Shown here piece after piece: positions 1,478 through 38,594 of a stretch of DNA of 64,000 bases (positions within the stretch are counted from its first letter, which is position 1; each line of letters starts with the position of its first letter). The notes beneath the pieces were generated by a model that searched no databases, had not been told where the DNA came from, and saw only the letters and a program-made list of their open reading frames with translations. The stretch comes from an uncultured Sulfurovum sp. Lineage in GTDB: Bacteria > Campylobacterota > Campylobacteria > Campylobacterales > Sulfurovaceae. Location: the NCBI GenBank assembly GCA_902727935.1, contig CACVAX010000039.1, forward strand, positions 1-64,000, read 5' to 3'. A program made the translations under genes and the position numbers.

Positions 1478-2284
1478 TTAGATTTTTTCTTTACAAATTT
1501 TGCAAGTTATATAGGAAGGTTTATTTCTTAATCGTTCTCTTTTTATATCCATTGTATAAGATTCTGTTTTTTCTAAGTATTTTTCTAATTCATTCATATA
1601 TAGATTGTATTTTTCGGTAAAACCTTTTGATTGAGATTCAATAAGTTTTCTGATAATTTTTCCTAGTGTTGTATGCACTTCAAACTCTCTCATTATTGAA
1701 ATTGGATTTAACTCATTTAGCTTCTTTTTTAAATTTATATCTTCTTTTAGGGTGGCATTGGGTAAACCATTTTTAATTTCAGAGTCATCTAAAGGGTGAA
1801 TCCATTGTCCATGAGCAATTTTATTTCTAATTCTAGACGGTTCTTCTATGTATTTTTGTAATAACAAAAGGAGTTTATTTTTCTTTTCTTGAATTAGGAG
1901 TTTTTCTTCTTTAAATTCTTGACATAGACGTCCAACTTGATTTGTTTGATTATTGTCTTTTAATAGTTGTATAGATTTTTCTTTTTCTATAAAATTATAT
2001 CTTTCTATCTTATCAAAAGAATAGTTAATTAACTTTTTCCATTTGTCAAATATTCCTTTTACCTTCAACATACTATTAATCTCATTTGTAGTAAATGCAT
2101 TGGGAGTATATATGATTTGAATAAATTGAGCTTCTGACCAAGCACTATAGGCTAAAGCTAACAAATTTACTCTCATGTCTTCTTTCAGTGTATTTGATTT
2201 TTGTATGGATTCGTTAATATCTTGGTTTAATTGTTTAATTACTTTTCTAAGATGCTGTACATTTTTAGTTTGTTTTTGAAACAA
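1478..2284 (-). CDS. Hypothetical protein with HEPN-like RNKIAH motif
   Basis: 268 aa ORF; contains EPSRIRNKIAHGQW (R-x4-H) and a C-terminal CKICK. Confidence 0.6.
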   Translation of the reverse strand: MFQKQTKNVQHLRKVIKQLNQDINESIQKSNTLKEDMRVNLLALAYSAWSEAQFIQIIYTPNAFTTNEINSMLKVKGIFDKWKKLINYSFDKIERYNFIEKEKSIQLLKDNNQTNQVGRLCQEFKEEKLLIQEKKNKLLLLLQKYIEEPSRIRNKIAHGQWIHPLDDSEIKNGLPNATLKEDINLKKKLNELNPISIMREFEVHTTLGKIIRKLIESQSKGFTEKYNLYMNELEKYLEKTESYTMDIKRERLRNKPSYITCKICKEKI

Positions 2285-2310
2285 CTTTTAATCCTGAGTA
2301 GTTACATGAT

Positions 2311-2400
2311 GGGTCTATAGTGGGGGGGGACGGAATTGAACCGTCTTCACAAAATTGTGTTTTATCCTTGTCTACCCCATAAAGTTACCTTTATAGACCC
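2311..2400 (-). other. tRNA-like 3' fragment enclosed in a 9-bp inverted repeat (GGGTCTATA...TATAGACCC)
   Basis: Minus strand has GACGG-TTCAATT-CCGTC T-arm followed by CCCCCCCA, but no convincing D or anticodon arm; flanks form GGGTCTATA/TATAGACCC. Confidence 0.4.
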
Positions 2401-2502
2401 AAGTGATTATACTCTAAAAGATTTAAGGTACATGAATTCTTGATAAATTAAAAAAACATAGCTAAAATAGTACTAAATAATCTACTAAAAAGGATATTCA
2501 AT

Positions 2503-2751
2503 ATGACACGAATTTTAGCAAACTACACAACAACTATTTCAGAACTTAAAAAAAGTCCTTCATCTGTTATAGAAAATGCGAATGGAGAGAGCATCGCTAT
2601 TTTAAATCATAATAAAGCGAGTGCTTACCTTGTGCCTAGTGATGTGTATGAGAACATGATGGAGATGTTAGACGAGTACTATTTGATACAACAAGTTAAA
2701 GAGAGATTGGACTATAAAGAGAGTGATTTAATAGAAGAGAATATAAAGTAA
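2503..2751 (+). CDS. Phd/YefM family antitoxin, apparently without adjacent toxin
   Basis: 82 aa, MTRILANYTTTISELKKSPSSVIENANGESIAILNHNKASAYLVPSDVYE pattern. Confidence 0.8.
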   Translation: MTRILANYTTTISELKKSPSSVIENANGESIAILNHNKASAYLVPSDVYENMMEMLDEYYLIQQVKERLDYKESDLIEENIK

Positions 2752-2970
2752 AATCTTTTTTAAGCCTTTCGGCGAATTTTTGAAGGTTTATCAGTTTTTA
2801 TTAATGGTGGATAAAATCCACCCTACAAACAACCATTTAGCTCTCATTGTATTATTTTTTATAGAATTTATTCCAGCTATAACTCCTAAAAAGTGTTATT
2901 TTTACTAAGTATACTTCGTAAAAATCATCTTTAGAATTGGAGTTTTCGACTTCAAATACATTTAAGTGAT

Positions 2971-2994
2971 ATTGTAGCTCAAAAAGGCTACAAT
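2971..2994. promoter_or_regulatory. Inverted repeat, candidate toxin-antitoxin operator
   Basis: ATTGTAGC-N8-GCTACAAT, perfect 8-bp arms, directly upstream of the RelB-like start. Confidence 0.5.
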
Positions 2995-3014
2995 AAAAAT
3001 AAAAAGGATTGACT

Positions 3015-3284
3015 GTGACATTAGATACAACGGTTAGAGCAAGAGTTGATAGTAATCTAAAAAAAGAAGTTGAAGAGATTTTACAAGAAGTTGGACTTAG
3101 TACTTCACAAGCTATCACACTATTTTTAAAGCGTATTAAGTATGAGAAAGGAATTCCTTTTGAGTTAAAGGTTCCTAATGCAATAACTATTCAAGCAATG
3201 GAAGAGGCAGAACAAAATGATGGAGAGACAATTAGTTTTGAGGAGTTTCTAGAAGAAAGTCAAGCTGATGCTAAAACTCTTTAG
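3015..3284 (+). CDS. RelB/DinJ family antitoxin
   Basis: Ribbon-helix-helix-type N-term TTVRARVDSNLKKEVEEILQEVGLSTSQAITLFLKRI; GTG start at 3015 gives better RBS spacing than TTG at 3009; overlaps the toxin gene. Confidence 0.8.
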   Translation: MTLDTTVRARVDSNLKKEVEEILQEVGLSTSQAITLFLKRIKYEKGIPFELKVPNAITIQAMEEAEQNDGETISFEEFLEESQADAKTL

Positions 3285-3561
3285 GGCGAAAACATTTTTA
3301 AAAGATTATCGAAAAATTAAATTTACGGATAAAACCTATTTAAAATATGTAGTTTCTATAACAACTCTGTTAAAAGAAGAGCATTTACCTAAAGAAGCTT
3401 TAGACCATCCATTAAAAGGTAACTATAGCCAATTTAGAGAGTTTCATGTTAGTGGAGACTTACTTGTTATTTACTATATAGAAGATGAAACTTTGAAGCT
3501 TGTTCGTATTGGCTCCCATTCAGATCAGAGTTGTTTGATTAATGTTGATGAAGAAGAGTAA
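3268..3561 (+). CDS. YafQ family type II toxin (mRNA interferase-like)
   Basis: 97 aa; FLKDYRKIKF...PLKGNYSQFREFHVSGDLLVIYYIEDETLKLVRIGSHSD. Confidence 0.8.
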   Translation: MLKLFRAKTFLKDYRKIKFTDKTYLKYVVSITTLLKEEHLPKEALDHPLKGNYSQFREFHVSGDLLVIYYIEDETLKLVRIGSHSDQSCLINVDEEE

Positions 3562-4550: not shown

Positions 4551-5696
4551 ATGGAAAAAAAATTACAGTTCTATCTTAAAAATTTGCTACATAATGGTGG
4601 AAGTGACTTACATCTTAAGTCTGGTGCAATTGTACGTCTTCGTGTTCGAGGAGACCTACTTAAATTGGGTGATAAAAGGGTTTCTCATGAAGAGTTGGAT
4701 GGTATTGCACAAGAAATTTTAACTACAGAACAATATGAACAATTAGTAAGTACAAAAGAGTTGGACTGTACTTATGTATTAGATGAGCATAATCGTTTTC
4801 GTGTAAACTTTTTTTATCAGTTGGATGGGCTTTCAGCTGTGATGAGAGTCATTCCTGTGAAAATCTTAACGTTAGAAGAGTTAAAATTACCAGCTGTTAT
4901 TGCTGAACTCTCTTTAATGCATCGAGGGCTTATATTGGTTACAGGCGTGACTGGATCAGGTAAGTCAACAACGTTGGCAGCGATGCTTAATCATATTAAT
5001 TCCACAAGTAAAAAACACATTATCACGGTTGAAGACCCTGTTGAATTTGTGCATCCTGATAAAGAGTCCTTGGTTTCTCAACGAAGTGTGGGGCAAGATA
5101 CCCTCTCTTTTGCCAATGCACTAAAAGGTGCTTTACGTGAAGACCCAGATATTATTTTGGTAGGGGAAATGCGTGATTTAGAGACCATTGAAATTGCCTT
5201 ACATGCTGCGAATACAGGTCACTTGGTCTTCTCAACTTTACATACTTTGGATGCGAAAGAGACGATTAACCGAATTATTGGAATGTTTCCCCAAGAGGAA
5301 CAAAATAGAATTCGTATTACTTTGGCTTCGGTACTTTCGGGGGTTGTTTGTCAAAGATTGGTCAAAACAGTAGATGGAAAAAGGGCTGCTGCTTTAGAGG
5401 TTATGATACAGACACCTCGAATTGTCGATTTAATTATTCAAAATAGAGACAGTGAACTGCTTGATACCATTGAAGATGGCAGTGAAATTTATGGTTCTCA
5501 ATCTTTCGATCAAGCATTGATAGCTTTATATCGTGATGAAAAAATTTCAAAAGAGGTTGTTTTTGAACATGCCACAAATCCTTCGGATATGAAATTAAAG
5601 TTAGATGAGGTGAATGCGACTCAAAAAGTGAAGAGTGAAGGTGCTGATGTTACACCAGATGTCTTTGAGTTAAAAAATCCTGAGGATGAGGAGTAA
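4551..5696 (+). CDS. PilT/PilU-like type IV pilus retraction ATPase
   Basis: Walker A GVTGSGKST, Walker B-like DIILVGEMRDLETIEIALHAANTGHLVFSTLHT. Confidence 0.9.
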   Translation: MEKKLQFYLKNLLHNGGSDLHLKSGAIVRLRVRGDLLKLGDKRVSHEELDGIAQEILTTEQYEQLVSTKELDCTYVLDEHNRFRVNFFYQLDGLSAVMRVIPVKILTLEELKLPAVIAELSLMHRGLILVTGVTGSGKSTTLAAMLNHINSTSKKHIITVEDPVEFVHPDKESLVSQRSVGQDTLSFANALKGALREDPDIILVGEMRDLETIEIALHAANTGHLVFSTLHTLDAKETINRIIGMFPQEEQNRIRITLASVLSGVVCQRLVKTVDGKRAAALEVMIQTPRIVDLIIQNRDSELLDTIEDGSEIYGSQSFDQALIALYRDEKISKEVVFEHATNPSDMKLKLDEVNATQKVKSEGADVTPDVFELKNPEDEE

Positions 5697-5757
5697 TTAT
5701 AGTTATTTTTAAACTTTTTATAATATAATTAAACAATTATAAATTTTAAGGCGTCTT

Positions 5758-5946
5758 ATGCATCGTAGTTCAATTATTATTTTTGGAATGGTTTCAAGTG
5801 TTTGGTTGATTATTTCATGTATCTCTTTAAATGTGTCAAAGTTTTACAATGAATTAGAAGTAAACTTGGGTACAGATTTAGATACAAAACCGACTACAGT
5901 TTTACGTGATAGAAATATCTATGATACAATAGAACACTTAAATTAA
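5758..5946 (+). CDS. Small hypothetical protein with N-terminal TM segment
   Basis: 62 aa ORF, hydrophobic N-term, placed tightly between pilT-like gene and the next ORF. Confidence 0.5.
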   Translation: MHRSSIIIFGMVSSVWLIISCISLNVSKFYNELEVNLGTDLDTKPTTVLRDRNIYDTIEHLN

Positions 5947-5957
5947 AAAGAGAGAAG

Positions 5958-6815
5958 ATGGCAGAACTAATTATAAAAATGACATCTTGGCTTTTGGCTG
6001 CAATGGCATTGGGCTTTATTGTGGCATGGCTTTTATCAAAGGTAATTTACCAAAAGAGGCATAAAGTTAAAGAAGATGGACTCTTAGCGATTATACTTGA
6101 ACGTAACAATATGGTTGAGAAGTTAGAAAAAAATTTTCGTAGTGAAAAGCTTATGTCTGAAAAAACTTCTAACAATTTAAAGCTGTTAAAAAAAGCCTAT
6201 GCTCAAAAAACTTCTGAATTAACCATTTTAAAAAATAACTTAGACAATGTTAACAGTACTGAAGATGAAAATTTAAAACTCAAAGAAAAATATCGTTCCT
6301 TGGTGAGTGATAATGCGAAACTTAAAGATATGGACATAAGAAGAGTAGAAGAGCTTCAAGGTTTTGAACACGTCTTAATGATGGCAGAAGATAGAGTTGA
6401 AAAAAATGAAAAACATTACAGCACAAGGCTAAGGCATTTAGAGGAAAATATTGAACAATTAATGACTCAAAATAAAGAGTATGAAGTGCATCACAAAAAT
6501 AATGACAAAAAAATGATAGAATTAAAAGAGGCTTTAAAGCTATGTGAAGCTGATAGTACAGAAGATGAATTTATTATATCAAGAGATCAGTTTACTAAGA
6601 TAGAAGAGCAGTTAGAAGCCTATCAAGATGAGATAAGTTTGTTGAAAAAAGAGAACAGTAATTTGCGTTTAAACCGTAATAGGACAGCTGTTTTAAAGGA
6701 CAACGGTGAACAAAGTTTAGAACTTAAAACCATAGAGGCACTAAAACAAGAAGAAGATGATAGCTCCATGCTTAAAACTTTTAAGGAAACGTATAAAAAA
6801 ATTACGAACTCTTAA
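5958..6815 (+). CDS. Hypothetical membrane-anchored coiled-coil protein
   Basis: N-terminal TM followed by long heptad-like E/K/L-rich sequence. Confidence 0.65.
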   Translation: MAELIIKMTSWLLAAMALGFIVAWLLSKVIYQKRHKVKEDGLLAIILERNNMVEKLEKNFRSEKLMSEKTSNNLKLLKKAYAQKTSELTILKNNLDNVNSTEDENLKLKEKYRSLVSDNAKLKDMDIRRVEELQGFEHVLMMAEDRVEKNEKHYSTRLRHLEENIEQLMTQNKEYEVHHKNNDKKMIELKEALKLCEADSTEDEFIISRDQFTKIEEQLEAYQDEISLLKKENSNLRLNRNRTAVLKDNGEQSLELKTIEALKQEEDDSSMLKTFKETYKKITNS

Positions 6816-6863
6816 TGAATATTTGGCTAGAATTCGCCCCTATTTTTAATTTAAGGAATTATA

Positions 6864-7400
6864 ATGTTAGAAGGTATTACTAGAGAGAGTATCGGATCAG
6901 CTTCTGCTAAGAAGTTAAGAAGAGATGGTTATCTAACAGCTAACATCTATGCTAATGGTGTAGAGAATGTACAGGCTGCGTTTAAAAGAGGTGACTTTGT
7001 AAAAGCTGTAAGAGCTAAAGAGGGATTAACTTTAGTTTCAAAAGTTGGAGACACTGAGTTTAACACAGTTATTCAAGAGTATCAACTACATCCTGTAAAT
7101 GGTGACGTTATGCATGTAGATTTAAGAGTGGCTGTACCAGGTCAAGTGACGAACTTTCTTATTCCAGTAGAGACTACAGGAACACCAATTGGTCTTAAGA
7201 ACAAAGGGGTACTTATGTTACAAAAGAAGAGATTAAAAGTAAGAGGTGCTATTGAAAATATGCCTAATGCTTTTGTTCTTGATGTAAGTGAACTTGACAG
7301 AGATGATTCTATTCTTATTAGAGATATGGAAGCACCTGCTAATTGTAGACTAATGGACAGACTAGACGTTGCTGTTGTTGGTGTCATCAAATCTAAATAA
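6864..7400 (+). CDS. rplY: 50S ribosomal protein L25/general stress protein Ctc
   Basis: MLEGITRESIGSASAKKLRRDGYLTANIYANG...; followed by pth. Confidence 0.9.
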   Translation: MLEGITRESIGSASAKKLRRDGYLTANIYANGVENVQAAFKRGDFVKAVRAKEGLTLVSKVGDTEFNTVIQEYQLHPVNGDVMHVDLRVAVPGQVTNFLIPVETTGTPIGLKNKGVLMLQKKRLKVRGAIENMPNAFVLDVSELDRDDSILIRDMEAPANCRLMDRLDVAVVGVIKSK

Positions 7401-7415
7401 GTTTAGTCCTAAATT

Positions 7416-7991
7416 ATGTTGTTAATTGTAGGACTTGGTAATCCAGGCAAACAATATGAAAATACACGGCATAATATCGGTTTCAAAGTCATAGACAAAC
7501 TGGTCGCTGACTTTGGAGCTAATGACATCTCCAAAAATGCTTTTCGAGGTGAACTTTTTAAATCTCCCAATCTTTTACTTTTAAAACCCACAACCTATAT
7601 GAATTTATCAGGTGAGTCTGTACAAGCTGTCAAAAATTTTTATAAAATTGAATTAGAAGATATTATTGTGATTCATGATGACATAGATTTACCTTTTTCG
7701 GCACTGCGTTTCAAAACAGGTGGGGGTCACGGTGGTCACAATGGTTTACGTTCTATAGATGCTATGGTTGGTAAAGAATATACGCGTGTGCGTATGGGTG
7801 TTGATAAACCGATACATAAATCACAAGTAGCTGACTATGTGTTACATGATTTTTCAGAAGATGAATATAAAGTGTTAACAGCATGGATTAGCCACACAAC
7901 AGAGGCTATTAAAGAGCTTAAAAAAAGTACTTTAGAGTTAGTAAAATCAAAATATTCACTTAAATTTTTTCAGCCCAAAACAATGGAATAG
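7416..7991 (+). CDS. pth: Peptidyl-tRNA hydrolase
   Basis: MLLIVGLGNPGKQYENTRHNIGFKVID...KPTTYMNLSGESV. Confidence 0.96.
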   Translation: MLLIVGLGNPGKQYENTRHNIGFKVIDKLVADFGANDISKNAFRGELFKSPNLLLLKPTTYMNLSGESVQAVKNFYKIELEDIIVIHDDIDLPFSALRFKTGGGHGGHNGLRSIDAMVGKEYTRVRMGVDKPIHKSQVADYVLHDFSEDEYKVLTAWISHTTEAIKELKKSTLELVKSKYSLKFFQPKTME

Positions 7992-28744: not shown

Positions 28745-29146
28745 ATGAAAAAAATTATAATTGTAACCTTTCTTTTATTGACCTTTTTAACTGCGAATGT
28801 CGAGATAGTTAGCTCAAAATCATGTAAGGTAGAGTCACTTTCTAAAAGTGATATTAAAAAACTTTTTATGCTTAAGAGAAAATCAATTGCCAATGAAAAA
28901 ATAGTGGTTTTAGACAGTTCAAATAAAAAGCTGTATCATAGTTTTATTGCTGATTATCTTAACAAGTCCGTAAGAAAGATTAAAACTTATTGGGTTCGAA
29001 TGCTTTTTACAGGTAAAAAAATACCTCCTAAAAAGCTCTCTTTAGTAGAGTTACATAATTTAGAAGATGAAGAGACTTGTCATATTTCTTATGTGGCAAG
29101 AGAACGAGACATGCCTATAAACTGGAAGATTATACACGTGAAATGA
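28745..29146 (+). CDS. Short periplasmic substrate-binding-like protein (PBP-like)
   Basis: Signal peptide; SKSDIKKLFMLKRKSIANEKIVVLDSSNKKLYHSFIADYLNKS...KIKTYWVRMLFTGK. Confidence 0.6.
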   Translation: MKKIIIVTFLLLTFLTANVEIVSSKSCKVESLSKSDIKKLFMLKRKSIANEKIVVLDSSNKKLYHSFIADYLNKSVRKIKTYWVRMLFTGKKIPPKKLSLVELHNLEDEETCHISYVARERDMPINWKIIHVK

Positions 29147-30609
29147 AAAGTAAAATAGCTTCCTTTTATCAAAAATTATCTTTGGTTCAAAAATTGTCCA
29201 TACCCATGCTTGTGGCAACAATTTTTGGCTTTATATTAACGGTGGTTATTTTTAATCAAGTACAGCTTATTGATAAGAATACGGTTTTTTTAAAAGATGA
29301 ACTTATTCCAACACTTGAAAGGTCTAATAATAACTTAGCATTACTCAAAAATATTTCTGAGAACCTTACTTTTGCGACATTGGCAGGAGAAGAGGATATG
29401 GTTTTAGAAATTAATGATCATAAAGCAATAGAAAAAAATTTAGAAATAATTATTAAGAATAAAAATTTACATTTTACAGAGGCAGAAGGCTATTTGATGC
29501 TTTTTAAAGCTTATTTTAAAATAGCTAAATCTTATGCTTTAAATATTATTGAAAGTTCTTCTTTAAGTGAAAAAGATGGCGAAAGTGCTGAAGCTTTACT
29601 GCTGAAACATAATAAAGTCAGAGAACAATTTAGAGCATTGAAAGTAGAAGTAGAACGTGAGATAACCCAAAGAACAGGGCTTATTCATAGCTTATTATTG
29701 GAAGTGATTTATTTTATTGTTATTTTTATTATTGTTTTTGCTGTTGTGCTTTTTTTTACTTCATATATTAATTATAAAGATTTTAATGATTATGATGTGA
29801 TTGAAGCCCAAAGAAAAGAACTTGCAAAGGTGAATGACAATATTCAATCATCCATCGAGTATGCCTTTTTGATTCAAGAGGCCATTTTGCCATTGAATAA
29901 AGTTTTGAATGGCTATACAGAAGATAATTTTGTGTTTTGGAAACAAAAAGATGCCGTGGGAGGTGATATCTATTTGGTGGCAGAACTGGAAAGTAAAAAT
30001 GAAATCTTAGTGATGGTTATAGATGGTGTAGGACATGGTGTTTCGGGAGCATTTTTAACCATATTGGTCAAAGCCATTGAAACACAAATTGTGGATAATA
30101 TTGCAAAAGGTTTATTGGAAGCGAGTCCTGCAAAAGTATTAGAATATTTTAATCAAACCATTAAAACCATGTTAAAACAAGAGAAAGGCTCAAAGTCAAA
30201 TGCAGGGTTTGATGGAGGTATTTTATATTATAATCAAGATACCCATGTCTGTAAATACGCAGGGGCAAAAACACCTTTATATATTTTGAATGACGATGAA
30301 TTAGAAGTTATTAGAAGTGATAGGGCAAGTGTGGGTTTTGTAAGAACAAAAATGAATCAAATCTATACGGAATATGAGATAAAGATTCAAAAAGGTACAA
30401 AGCTTTATATAACTACCGATGGTGTTTCTGACCAAGAAGGCAAAGAGAATACTCGTTATGGTCAAGAGCGATTTAAAGCGTGGATACTTGCCAATAAAGA
30501 TAAACCATTTTACGAACAAAAAGAGCATCTTATCGACAGTGTGATGACCTTTCAATCTAGCTGTGAACAAAGTGATGATATGACGGTGATGGGAATGCAG
30601 TTTATCTAA
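29143..30609 (+). CDS. SpoIIE/PP2C-family phosphatase with membrane sensor (SiaA-like)
   Basis: ATG at 29143 overlaps preceding stop (ATGA); two TMs; GGDIYLVAELESKNEILVMVIDGVGHGVSGAFLTILVKAIE. Confidence 0.85.
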   Translation: MKSKIASFYQKLSLVQKLSIPMLVATIFGFILTVVIFNQVQLIDKNTVFLKDELIPTLERSNNNLALLKNISENLTFATLAGEEDMVLEINDHKAIEKNLEIIIKNKNLHFTEAEGYLMLFKAYFKIAKSYALNIIESSSLSEKDGESAEALLLKHNKVREQFRALKVEVEREITQRTGLIHSLLLEVIYFIVIFIIVFAVVLFFTSYINYKDFNDYDVIEAQRKELAKVNDNIQSSIEYAFLIQEAILPLNKVLNGYTEDNFVFWKQKDAVGGDIYLVAELESKNEILVMVIDGVGHGVSGAFLTILVKAIETQIVDNIAKGLLEASPAKVLEYFNQTIKTMLKQEKGSKSNAGFDGGILYYNQDTHVCKYAGAKTPLYILNDDELEVIRSDRASVGFVRTKMNQIYTEYEIKIQKGTKLYITTDGVSDQEGKENTRYGQERFKAWILANKDKPFYEQKEHLIDSVMTFQSSCEQSDDMTVMGMQFI

Positions 30610-32499: not shown

Positions 32500-32583
32500 A
32501 TGAAATATTCTAAGATGATAGTAGAAGCTTTAGTGAGAGGAATTTTACAAGAGCTTTGCTCATGTGGAAGGAGAGTTTTTTAA
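32500..32583 (+). CDS. Candidate 27-aa microprotein in operon
   Basis: MKYSKMIVEALVRGILQELCSCGRRVF; AGAGGA upstream; stop overlaps next start (TAATG). Confidence 0.5.
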   Translation: MKYSKMIVEALVRGILQELCSCGRRVF

Positions 32584-33047
32584 TGAAGCCAGAAGAGATA
32601 AAGCCTGATACGGAGTTATGCACCATTTTAGGGTTCAATGCCCAAACAGGAAATTGTAGACGTTATTTTAATGGATGTTTGAAGACCAATAAACTCAATG
32701 CCACAGCCATTGCTTTAAATATTAAAGATGAACATTTTCATTACACCATGGAAAATCTTGCAAATTCTAAAGTCAATAGAATGATTTTAGAGCATGAATT
32801 TTGCCAAAATGTTATTGGCTATTGTGATGAATTGGATGACTGTGCTACGACTAAAAAGTTTGTAGATTTCGTGGAAGTTGTTGAGGGAAAAATCATCGGC
32901 TATTGTCTTGATGATGCCATAGATGCATATATAGAAAACCCTGATTTTGTGGATGAACGTATACGTCTTGCAATGAAGATGATGTTGTTGAGTAACCGTT
33001 GGTATAAAGCAAAAATAGATATGGATTTAATTCCAACCATGATATAG
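32583..33047 (+). CDS. Conserved-looking hypothetical protein, cysteine-containing
   Basis: ATG at 32583 with AAGGAGAG RBS; MKPEEIKPDTELCTILGFNAQTGNCRRYFNGCL. Confidence 0.65.
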   Translation: MKPEEIKPDTELCTILGFNAQTGNCRRYFNGCLKTNKLNATAIALNIKDEHFHYTMENLANSKVNRMILEHEFCQNVIGYCDELDDCATTKKFVDFVEVVEGKIIGYCLDDAIDAYIENPDFVDERIRLAMKMMLLSNRWYKAKIDMDLIPTMI

Positions 33048-33533: not shown

Positions 33534-34031
33534 ATGCAAAGTTCTCTTTTTTGGTTAATTGTTATCAGCATTATTTGGCTTGTTAGCATAAAGCCAAAAG
33601 AGAAGGAAATAATTCAAAAAGAGCCAATCCCTCCAAAATCTATTACTAGCACTTCTAAAAATATTATTGACGTAGCCAAAGAAAATTTGGGAAAACCATA
33701 TGTCTATGGCAAGGAAGGACCTGACAGTTTTGATTGTTCTGGCTTTGTTTATGCCATGCACAAAGAGCTTGGTATTCAGCTTCCACGTACTTCACTCAAT
33801 CAGTCTAAAATTAAAGGAGAAAAAATTCCTAAAAATCTTTTAAAAGAAGGTGATTTGGTTTTTTTTGATACAGCTAAAGAGGGACATGTAAATCATTCAG
33901 GTATTTACTTAGGAGAGGGCAAGTTTATTCATGCCACTTCAGGTAAAGCCTATTCAGTGACCATCTCTAGTTTAGAGGCATGGTACAAAGACAAATTCAA
34001 ATGGGGTAAACGACTCAATGCAAACAAATGA
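33534..34031 (+). CDS. NlpC/P60 family peptidase
   Basis: GKPYVYGKEGPDSFDCSGFVYAMHKELG...GDLVFFDTAKEGHVNHSGIYLGEGKFIHA. Confidence 0.9.
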   Translation: MQSSLFWLIVISIIWLVSIKPKEKEIIQKEPIPPKSITSTSKNIIDVAKENLGKPYVYGKEGPDSFDCSGFVYAMHKELGIQLPRTSLNQSKIKGEKIPKNLLKEGDLVFFDTAKEGHVNHSGIYLGEGKFIHATSGKAYSVTISSLEAWYKDKFKWGKRLNANK

Positions 34032-34568: not shown

Positions 34569-37373
34569 ATGGTTTTGTTGATAGCTGAAAAAGAGTATTT
34601 ATTTCGACTACAAGTTTTTCAACAAACAATTTCTACCCTTTCCATGTATCCTTTAAGACTTTACAAAAACTCCTGTTATGAGACTTTCATTAATGATGAT
34701 GGCTTTCAAAGTACACTTAAAAATATTCATAATCAATTTATTAAAGAGAAAGCTTTTGATTCTTCTCGTGTTTTGAAATTTTTAAAAGAAAAAATGAAAA
34801 AGAAGCCTAGAGAAATTGAAAAAGAAATTTTTGTAGAATTAGGTTTATTTGGGGATAAGCTCAATAAAAGTATGTGGGCTACAAAACCAAGTAACTCTCT
34901 TGCTTTTACCCGAGACATTAAAGAAAATAAAAAACTATGGTTCTCTTTAATGTTTTATGATATTTTTTCAGTTGATGAAATTGAAAAGTTTGAACAGCCT
35001 TTTGAACGAGAATGTCTTGTAGGTATGTATAATGTTTATGTCAAAATAAATAAAGAATATACACTCTCTATAGGAAGATTTTTAACCAAAGAACAAGATA
35101 GCGACAAGGTTGTTAGTAGTATTTTTAAAAACTATGATTTTGATAATATTAATATTTTTGAACTTACAAAAGTTTCAAGGCGTAGAAAAATTTTTAATCA
35201 AAAAATGATTAAAGATGAAGCATTTAAATTACAAAAAATTTTTAGAATATTTTTAGATATTATTGAAAATCTTCCAGATGAAATAGCTAAAAATGAAATA
35301 GAAAAAGTTGCGATTTTTATTTATATGATAGTGCAAGATGATATTAAAGAAAAAACAATTGAAACACTGAAGTATCAATTAATATATAACAATACTCAAT
35401 TTATAATTAAAGCCAATACGATTAATCGTCATAAAAAAGATGCTGATTTTGGAAAATATTTTCGTAAATTTGAAAACTATCGAGACCTTTTTTTGGCTGA
35501 ATATACATCAAGAATTAAAACTTCTTTTAATAAAAAATATTCTGGTGTACGACATGAAGACAATGGGTTTAATCCAATTAATGATTTAATTGGTAGAATT
35601 TGTAGTCGATTAAATGCTGATATAGGTTGTTATATTAAGTACAGTCTTCATAATGAAAAATTAAAACTCATCACAAGTTATGGAGATAAAAAATATGGAG
35701 AAGGCATACAGAACCTCATTGAAAGAATTAATTTAGAAGAGAAAGGAATAATAGAAAAGAGTAGGGTATTAAAGATTATTAATAACTATTATAATGTAGA
35801 TTATCAGAACGATATTAATAAACTTATTCTTCAAGACATAGAAGATAATGATGGATTTTTTTTACCCATAGTCAATAAATATATTCGTTCTAATATTGCT
35901 ATTCCTGTAACCTTTCGCTATAAATTATTAGGAGTATTACTTATTGATAGTTTTAGAAAAGATTCTTTTACAAGAGATGATATCAATTTAACTCTCTCCA
36001 TTACTTCAGCATTATCCGTGCAAATTTTTGACCAAATTATTGAACAGAATCTTTTTAATATTATCAAGTCTGTACCCAACCAAGCTGTCTTAAAAGATGA
36101 AAAATTATTGCGTGAGCATTTTTCAGATTTGACACGATATGTTAATAGAATATTTTTTAGTTATGGGGTGGCGATTTGGAAATATGATGAAAAGGATTCA
36201 AGTTTCATATTAAAGTCGACGACATTGCCTATTGAAGCTGATTATGTAAAAATAACACAAGGAAGTAATGACCTTATACTTGATTTGTTAAATTATAAAA
36301 ATAATGAACTTAGACCTTTAAGTGAATACAATATTGGAACAAGTAATCGTTTTACTTGTTGTAATCCTAAAAAATATGATGAGAGAATCAATACGGTCAA
36401 AATTTATCCAATTGTTGAAGATGGAATACTGTTGGGAGCTTTTTCCATTTATAATAAAAGAGAAGCTGATTATAAAGCCATAGACTCACAAAGCTTAGTG
36501 AGTGTGAGTGCACATTTAAAAGTTTTTTTTAATATCGTTTCAACTTTTCGTGAGCAAAGAGCATTAATTGCAAATAATGCTTTGCATGAAATTAGTAAGA
36601 AATTGGTCATGGTTCAAAATAAGACAGCTCAATTAGAAGAGTTATTGTATAAAAATTTTCGTTATCTTGATGGCTATACAAGACATAGGTTTAATGTGAA
36701 GTTAGATGACATTAATAATTTTATATCTGATGTGAAGCAGTCCTTTGATTTTATAGCCAATCAATCAGATGCTTACATGGGGCAAGATTTTGTTGATGAG
36801 GAAATAGAAAAAAAGTATTTACCTGCTCAGAAACAAGTACATAGGAAAACTTTATGTGTTCGAGACATGATTAACCAATTAATTAACTCTATTCCAGCAC
36901 CTTTATGCAATAAAAGAATAAATATTAAAAATAATACGAATAAAGTAGATGTTTACATAGCCCATAATGTCTTGAATGATATCTTTCAAAATTTACTTTT
37001 TAATGCCATGAAATATTCTTTTCAAAGAACAGAGATTATTATTTTGTCTAAATTAAAAGGCAATGCTTTATACATCTCTTTTAAAAATGAGGGTTTGGAT
37101 ATTACACTCGATGAAAGAGATGATATTTTTAAATATGGTTATCGATGTCTTAATGCCAAAAAATTTAAAGAAACCATTGACAATGAAGAAGTTTCTTATA
37201 AAGACGGTGAAGAACAAAATGCAGGAATTGGTCTTTATAAGGTACAGTCACTTTTAAAAAATGTTTTAAGTGGGGAAGTGAGATTAAAAAAAGAGTCCAG
37301 TAACTTTAAAAATGGTGCAAAAATTATATTTGAAGTGGTATTACCAATTAAATTAGTTAAGAAGAGGGGATAA
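34569..37373 (+). CDS. Large GAF-like sensor histidine kinase (GHKL ATPase C-terminus)
   Basis: 934 aa; ALHEISKKLVMVQ H-box-like, NVLNDIFQNLLFNAMKYSF N-box, NAGIGLYKVQSLL G-box. Confidence 0.75.
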   Translation: MVLLIAEKEYLFRLQVFQQTISTLSMYPLRLYKNSCYETFINDDGFQSTLKNIHNQFIKEKAFDSSRVLKFLKEKMKKKPREIEKEIFVELGLFGDKLNKSMWATKPSNSLAFTRDIKENKKLWFSLMFYDIFSVDEIEKFEQPFERECLVGMYNVYVKINKEYTLSIGRFLTKEQDSDKVVSSIFKNYDFDNINIFELTKVSRRRKIFNQKMIKDEAFKLQKIFRIFLDIIENLPDEIAKNEIEKVAIFIYMIVQDDIKEKTIETLKYQLIYNNTQFIIKANTINRHKKDADFGKYFRKFENYRDLFLAEYTSRIKTSFNKKYSGVRHEDNGFNPINDLIGRICSRLNADIGCYIKYSLHNEKLKLITSYGDKKYGEGIQNLIERINLEEKGIIEKSRVLKIINNYYNVDYQNDINKLILQDIEDNDGFFLPIVNKYIRSNIAIPVTFRYKLLGVLLIDSFRKDSFTRDDINLTLSITSALSVQIFDQIIEQNLFNIIKSVPNQAVLKDEKLLREHFSDLTRYVNRIFFSYGVAIWKYDEKDSSFILKSTTLPIEADYVKITQGSNDLILDLLNYKNNELRPLSEYNIGTSNRFTCCNPKKYDERINTVKIYPIVEDGILLGAFSIYNKREADYKAIDSQSLVSVSAHLKVFFNIVSTFREQRALIANNALHEISKKLVMVQNKTAQLEELLYKNFRYLDGYTRHRFNVKLDDINNFISDVKQSFDFIANQSDAYMGQDFVDEEIEKKYLPAQKQVHRKTLCVRDMINQLINSIPAPLCNKRINIKNNTNKVDVYIAHNVLNDIFQNLLFNAMKYSFQRTEIIILSKLKGNALYISFKNEGLDITLDERDDIFKYGYRCLNAKKFKETIDNEEVSYKDGEEQNAGIGLYKVQSLLKNVLSGEVRLKKESSNFKNGAKIIFEVVLPIKLVKKRG

Positions 37374-37374
37374 A

Positions 37375-37803
37375 ATGAAAATAGTTTGGTTAGAGGATGA
37401 GCCTGAGACCATAGATGTGGTCAGAAGAAAGTTAGAAATAATTTATAGAGATATTATTATTTGTAAATCTTTTGCTTCTTTTTCAGATGAATTGGATGAG
37501 CTTGAAGATAAAAGTGATGAAGTCCTTATTTTAGACATTCGTATGATTTTTAATACAGATATTGAAGTGACATGTAAAGGAAGTGAAGCATTTACGATTA
37601 TAAAAGAACTTGAAGGTGGGTTTGAATATTATCAGAAGTGTTTAAAGGCACGTTTTAACAATTTAAGAATTTTATTTTTTTCTTCAAAACCTCAAAAGGA
37701 GGCTCAAGAAGAGGCTCATGAGAATGATGTACCCATTGAATGGATTATTTCAAAAGATAACACAATGCAATTACTTGAAAAAATTAAGGAAATCAAATGT
37801 TAA
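37375..37803 (+). CDS. Stand-alone receiver-like domain protein
   Basis: IVWLEDEPETID...EVLILDIRMIF...ILFFSSKP...WIISKD. Confidence 0.7.
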   Translation: MKIVWLEDEPETIDVVRRKLEIIYRDIIICKSFASFSDELDELEDKSDEVLILDIRMIFNTDIEVTCKGSEAFTIIKELEGGFEYYQKCLKARFNNLRILFFSSKPQKEAQEEAHENDVPIEWIISKDNTMQLLEKIKEIKC

Positions 37804-38594
37804 GGTTATGGAGCATCTGGATGAGTGTTAGTGTATTTACTCTTGCTGAAGATAATATAAGTGAAATTTTGGACAAAATATCAAATAACGTATATCAAGC
37901 TCCTCAAGCAAATTTGAATATGACAGTTGGAGATTTGGGTAGTTTCTTTGAAGGAACCAGTGCCCATATATCAAACTTAATTACTTTTTATAGCATTTTA
38001 ATATCAGGACTTTTAGCACTTTTTTCCATAATATATTTTCTAAAAAGCTCTGGAATCATTAAAAAAATAGAAAATAATAAAGAATATATTAGAAAAAAAC
38101 ATGAAGATTTAGAAGTGAGTATGAAGGATGAGGTCAAAAGAGAAATTGATAGGCAGTTAATTTACAATGCACAAAATATTATGAAAGAAGTCCAAAATGA
38201 TGCTTATAGAAAAATAGATTCTAATATAGAAGAGATACGTGTTATTGAACAAAAAAAATTATTTGACTATCAGCAATTGGTGTATAAGGTTATTCAAGTA
38301 AAAAAATATGCCATAGAAGAGTTTATCCATAATAAAGAATTAAGTGACCACGATATATTATTGAAGTTTGTTAATATTGAAGGACGCTATAATGAAACAC
38401 TTAATCATGATCTTCCAAATCTTTTCTCCACAGAAATTCAAGACATCGTTATTCCCACAATTAAAAAACTTTCAGAGTTTACAGAGTTAAAAGAGATTAT
38501 TGCTGAGCATGTGAATCAATTATTAGAAAAAGATTTAGCGTATACGGATAAATCTAAGTTGCAACAAGTATTAAAACACTACAAATATCTTTAG
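37797..38594 (+). CDS. Hypothetical membrane coiled-coil protein coupled to kinase/receiver pair
   Basis: Overlaps upstream gene by 7 nt; TM at LITFYSILISGLLALFSIIYFL followed by coiled coil. Confidence 0.6.
   Translation: MLRLWSIWMSVSVFTLAEDNISEILDKISNNVYQAPQANLNMTVGDLGSFFEGTSAHISNLITFYSILISGLLALFSIIYFLKSSGIIKKIENNKEYIRKKHEDLEVSMKDEVKREIDRQLIYNAQNIMKEVQNDAYRKIDSNIEEIRVIEQKKLFDYQQLVYKVIQVKKYAIEEFIHNKELSDHDILLKFVNIEGRYNETLNHDLPNLFSTEIQDIVIPTIKKLSEFTELKEIIAEHVNQLLEKDLAYTDKSKLQQVLKHYKYL

Follow-up and report, generated by a model that had tools for sequence, protein, structure and literature searches.

Sensor kinases with a HATPase_c catalytic domain, such as VanS, WalK/YycG, PhoR, and CpxA, represent the canonical first component of His-Asp phosphosignalling. 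Single-domain receivers with an intact phosphorylation site include CheY, DivK, and Spo0F, and solo receivers are known to act as relay intermediates, e.g. Spo0F. In the Detocs system the receiver of the DtcC protein is fused to an effector domain. Detocs is described as consisting of a histidine kinase (DtcA), a phosphate-absorbing protein (DtcB), and a response regulator (DtcC) (PMC11728103). Furthermore, the unvalidated predictions of DefensePredictor include a candidate defence architecture in which HATPase and REC domains are combined (PMC13092281, Fig. 6F legend), and these predictions may or may not include relatives of the genes described here.

A trio of genes in a 64,000 nt stretch of DNA from an uncultured Sulfurovum sp. 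of the Campylobacterota (contig CACVAX010000039.1, positions 1 to 64,000; this whole stretch is referred to as the window) was compared with these systems. The trio is a genuine, conserved, mobile signalling module, for which no curated family covers the receiver, the membrane protein, or the sensor domain of the kinase, and it could be an uncharacterized stress or anti-virus device. Compared by description, it resembles Detocs in several respects: one operon holds the kinase, the solo receiver, and a third gene, the module uses His-Asp chemistry and has a candidate effector that is non-transcriptional, and its distribution is patchy and mobile. The third protein of the trio, however, is a single-pass helical membrane protein with neither a receiver domain nor a nucleoside phosphorylase. 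By analogy, the trio may work like Detocs in outline, yet by description it is set outside Detocs.

Gene layout and domain content

The three open reading frames occupy positions 34569-38594 of the window and encode proteins of 934, 142, and 265 aa. These are a soluble sensor histidine kinase (34569..37373, forward strand; 934 aa as listed, assigned from its Pfam domains), a solo receiver with no output domain (37375..37803, forward strand), and a single-pass membrane protein with a long, charged helical part predicted to be cytosolic (37797..38594, forward strand), the gene for which overlaps that of the receiver by 7 nt. Coordinates and overlap agree with the initial annotation. The TTG at 34575 is likelier to be the kinase start than the ATG at 34569, on account of its better spacing to AGGGGG and an N-terminal length equal to that of the relative in genome G099 (locus L002).

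The GAF-like middle and GHKL-type end that had been proposed for the kinase were both recovered by Pfam. The GAF match (E 1.1e-4) covers residues 426-486 (35844..36026, forward strand) of a domain that extends from about 334 to 490, and a single weak PtsP match in one relative hints at another GAF-like region at about 500-655. The HATPase_c catalytic domain (residues 802-923; 36972..37337, forward strand) scored above the cut-off (E 2.6e-7) and contains an N box (N808/N812), an N-x-G G1 box, an F box, and a G2 box of the form GxGL. The predicted phospho-accepting histidine, H673 (codon 36585..36587, forward strand), lies in the motif ALHEISKKL and is invariant in 7/7 aligned kinases, as are N808, N812, G842, G886, and G888, at identities down to 19%; the F box and G2 GxGL are kept across the same seven. 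Both the phospho-accepting His and the ATP-binding N/G boxes of a His-Asp kinase are therefore present. The G1 box, KNEGLDI, carries Asn where many kinases carry Asp and had been regarded as atypical. It is an ordinary variant, since the best-scoring PDB kinase domain (8dx0_A, a histidine kinase) reads LTNRGKTI at this position and so carries the same N-x-G form. The VanS entry 8dvq was also among the PDB profile matches of the kinase.

The N-terminal 330 residues (34569..35558, forward strand), annotated as uncharacterized, had no sequence match in Pfam or the PDB. Structure prediction bore out that description: an AlphaFold2 model built from 11 sequences was confident (mean pLDDT 84.5, pTM 0.85) and gave no fold match in the PDB (best E 0.13, TM about 0.1) and none among the viral proteins of BFVD. 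The domain model was used in place of a full-length kinase model built from 3 sequences, which was unusable (pLDDT 38.7). A possible likeness of the region to AraC-type sensor regions was not confirmed. In summary, the catalytic domain is like those of VanS, WalK/YycG, PhoR, and CpxA, including the N-x-G G1 box, whereas the trio kinase differs from them in being soluble, in having a 330-aa N-terminal domain outside known families and PDB folds, and in being partnered with a receiver that has no DNA-binding domain.

The receiver matched the Pfam receiver model below threshold only (19.1 bits against a cut-off of 30.2), and a profile search of the PDB gave no match. The acidic pocket (E7/D8), the predicted phospho-acceptor D54 (codon 37534..37536, forward strand), S104, and K127 are all present. 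D8, D54, and S104 are invariant in 7/7 rows of a second alignment; K127 is clear within subfamily A and less surely placed in subfamily B. From these residues, the kinase and receiver look catalytically intact. No further Pfam or NCBIfam domain was found in the 142 aa, and the relatives are likewise receiver-only, so that a receiver without output, as annotated, describes the window copy and all the relatives' receivers. It is thus not the response regulator with an output domain of a classical two-component system. Like CheY, DivK, and Spo0F, it is a single-domain protein with an intact phosphorylation site; unlike them, its gene is tied to a single family of kinases and a single family of membrane proteins, and it matches Pfam Response_reg only below threshold.

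The membrane protein has one strong transmembrane (TM) window, at residues 61-79 (37977..38033, forward strand; mean KD 2.32), with positive charge on its C-terminal side. Lys and Arg number zero before and three after this segment, which predicts a cytosolic location for the long helical part that follows, and a TM segment followed by positive charge was found in 8/8 membrane proteins examined. In subfamily A about 45-60 residues precede the TM segment and are expected outside the cytosol; in subfamily B the segment starts at residues 25-48, leaving little outside. Hydrophobicity along the charged helical part repeats with a period near 3.7 residues (p 0.01), indicative of amphipathic-helix character. 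The protein had been described as a membrane coiled coil, of which the membrane part holds; a coiled coil is a plausible hypothesis, with a period closer to an 11-residue than to a heptad repeat. Pfam returned sub-threshold noise only, HTH_69 and phage-tail matches from the domain scans were dismissed as sub-threshold chance, and a profile search of the PDB gave no match.

Two other genes of the window were recorded. A membrane SpoIIE-type phosphatase is encoded at 29077-30609, its catalytic half matching SiaA (NF038263, E 3.5e-54, below cut-off), and is a possible partner-switching regulator. Positions 32556-33047 encode a conserved 163-aa protein with a weak, sub-threshold match to the N-terminal domain of shikimate dehydrogenase (NCBIfam E 4e-6), the remainder of that enzyme being absent.

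Conservation, mobility, and loss of the trio

Seven complete trios were identified, that of the window and six others, always in the order kinase, receiver, membrane protein. The copies lie in two families of the same taxonomic order, in which one trio divided between two contigs and several incomplete or broken copies also occur. The second copy in the genus, in G099 (L002/L004), retains the order with identities of 46% (kinase), 51% (receiver), and 32% (membrane protein), and was the only match in a scan of genome contigs. Kinase relatives in family f9 were found in G565, G575, G583 (twice), G625, G634, and G384, and a distant kinase occurs in G539 (family f1). In the flanks read, the kinase is followed by the receiver and then the membrane gene wherever the contig is long enough; the G565 contig ends inside the kinase. 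The eighth copy is split over G583 contigs C30 and C85, the first bases of C85 repeating the end of C30. At each of the seven complete loci the receiver gene runs into the membrane gene, with an overlap of 4-11 nt, and the spacing between kinase and receiver is -4 to +11.

Co-occurrence was examined in 56 genomes (34 of the genus and 22 of family f9), searched from all three genes. The receiver and membrane genes were found in the same 8/56 genomes, all of them kinase-positive, in addition to one weak partial membrane match in G605; this gives P 6e-9 for random placement, ignoring phylogeny, with the G605 match omitted and G097 counted as a remnant. Distances among kinases, receivers, and membrane proteins of the seven complete trios correlate (Mantel r 0.96, 0.95, and 0.92; p <= 0.0024). 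As the same is expected for any co-inherited set, this speaks for genes that travel together and not specifically for contact between their products. No DNA-binding gene lies within the trio operons, consistent with the annotated lack of a DNA-binding output. Receiver and membrane protein had no curated-family match above cut-off. The initial annotation would have fallen had the genes not been conserved together or had a known family explained all three; in the event, order, coupling, and co-occurrence mark a real unit, and no curated family covers all of its members.

The three genes also move horizontally as a set. The kinase occurs in 3/34 genus members, at three unrelated sites: next to a DUF1456 gene and an epimerase gene in the window, beside an operon resembling type II secretion and a gene for a UvrD-like helicase at L004, and between a TAXI-type gene and, at the other end, an obgE-like gene at L012/L013. 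The block upstream of the window trio is kept in 16 other genus genomes, and in none of them (0/16) does the kinase follow it over the stretch read. Trio G+C is below that of the flanks in 10/10 loci, and by this measure the window trio ranks among the lowest 0.3% of all 4-kb stretches in the window.

Broken copies were also found. The kinase of G097 stops at about codon 177, apparently in the start of an IS element, the assembly contains no receiver, and the membrane gene picks up again on a different contig, behind an rve transposase, a sequence pattern by which this copy is judged inactivated. Its remnants (L012 9343-9988 and L013 2052-3113) each end in an IS-type element, the middle being missing from the assembly. 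G539 also holds a second copy, truncated next to a transposase-like gene. Apparent frameshifts in genes 2 and 3 of G539 were not counted as decay, as glnA and a penicillin-binding protein gene on that contig are split too. Taken together, patchy presence, differing sites, low G+C, and inactivated copies indicate that the trio is dispensable and often gained and lost. Searches of plasmids gave no match to the window kinase or membrane protein (two relatives gave generic kinase-domain matches only) and IMG/VR gave none, i.e. there was no sign of phage or plasmid carriage in either.

The surroundings of the window trio vary as well. An NlpC/P60 gene at 33534-34031 is present, absent, or moved in otherwise syntenic blocks of related genomes, and the spot is thus variable even upstream of the trio. 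Furthermore, L025 and L026 (about 1971-3471) encode, in other genus members, receiver-like and membrane sensor-like proteins at the site that the trio occupies in the window, so signalling genes recur there.

Genomic context in relation to defence

Defence-type genes lie near 4/10 loci, a count that is suggestive only. A PIN gene is directly upstream of the trio at L037; a type II restriction enzyme, a methyltransferase, and a PIN gene are nearby at L045; a ZorA/ZorB-like pair and a MazE-PIN pair are nearby at L055; and Cas6-Cas8b-Cas7b (CRISPR I-B) is about 4.4 kb from the trio at L054. No defence neighbour was found in the stretches read at the window, G099, G583 C32, G575, and G634 copies; by locus, the list reads window, L004, L044, L046, and L056. 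The PIN-domain toxin genes directly 5' of the kinase were located at L037 7470-7904, L045 3295-3669, and L055 7929-8327. At L055 the ZorA/ZorB-like motor pair (5139-7485; ZorB1 model E 2e-59) is upstream of the MazE-PIN pair and the trio, with no ZorC/D genes in the stretch read.

The PADLOC candidates PDC-M43B and PDC-M60B were rejected as identifications: their matches to the window genes (E 8e-4 and 1e-2) and to the kinase at L044 (E 5e-9) are limited to weak likeness in the generic HATPase or receiver part, leaving the other domains and the third gene unmatched. The trio had been said to resemble defence systems. Patchiness (3/34 genus members at three sites), low G+C, and loss through an IS element are as expected of a mobile anti-phage system and, with the neighbours at four of ten loci, lend that resemblance circumstantial support. 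The window copy itself has no defence neighbour. Defence as the purpose of the trio is the weakest part of the reading offered below and falls somewhat short of an even chance. Narrower still is the tentative proposal of an abortive anti-phage system in which a soluble kinase with an unseen sensor fold, a solo phospho-receiver, and a single-pass effector would act without a nucleotide messenger or transcription.

Signalling route and alternative readings

In the proposed mechanism, the cytosolic kinase would use its unclassified N-terminal domain together with the GAF region to sense an internal cue and would autophosphorylate on H673, the phosphate would pass to D54 of the solo receiver, and the phosphorylated receiver would bind the cytosolic helical part of the membrane protein and alter its state. 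During stress or phage attack, the membrane protein would then most probably serve as an effector that is toxic at the membrane or arrests growth. Contact between receiver and membrane protein is proposed because their genes are coupled and no alternative output is encoded. Given a real unit, no curated family for all three proteins, and no DNA-binding output, direct signalling to the membrane protein is the most economical reading and a likely one. For the full account, a mobile operon forming a complete His-Asp unit with a non-transcriptional output, in which the phospho-receiver switches a probably toxic or growth-arresting membrane protein, the balance stands about level.

Other accounts were weighed against these data. 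That the genes are three unrelated neighbours forming no functional unit is already refuted by co-occurrence, fixed order, and overlapping genes at independent sites, and is hardly credible. Identity with Detocs or a close variant of it, i.e. kinase, buffer receiver, and receiver-effector, draws on three genes that share the Detocs logic as described (PMC11728103). It is very improbable, because the third protein of the window and of the relatives scanned has no receiver domain, as DtcC would require, and no PADLOC model fits the trio beyond generic ATPase/receiver similarity; PADLOC and NCBIfam scans gave no Detocs match, whether or not Detocs models are included there. An ordinary two-component system or phosphorelay, in which the receiver hands its phosphate to an unlinked HPt or regulator in the manner of Spo0F for a transcriptional output, would agree with the presence of all phosphotransfer residues and with the use of solo receivers as relay intermediates. 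No HPt or regulator accompanies the trio in the loci read, despite its moves between sites and genera, and a mobile unit should carry its own output, which makes the phosphorelay unlikely.

The main rival reverses the direction of signalling. For a helical protein with a single membrane pass, a role as input or as scaffold is equally conceivable. The membrane protein would sense the state of the envelope or membrane and control the soluble kinase, with the phospho-receiver acting on unlinked targets. To monitor the envelope, a soluble kinase would depend on a partner in the membrane, and the residues preceding the TM segment in subfamily A would provide an exposed portion; subfamily B exposes little outside the cytosol, which weakens the argument. 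Furthermore, the membrane gene is translationally coupled to the receiver in 7/7 loci and the kinase owns sensor-type domains, so an input role is considered rather unlikely. Direct signalling from the receiver to the membrane protein is preferred over these accounts, as no other candidate output stays constant while the unit moves between genera.

The trio offers a simple test case, with three genes, two mutable residues (H673 and D54), and one readout. Its kinase contributes a sensor domain with no structural counterpart in the PDB, and its other two proteins form families that lack a curated model. If the proposed route is true, His-Asp phosphosignalling, normally tied to gene control, would extend to a compact mobile effector switch at the membrane.
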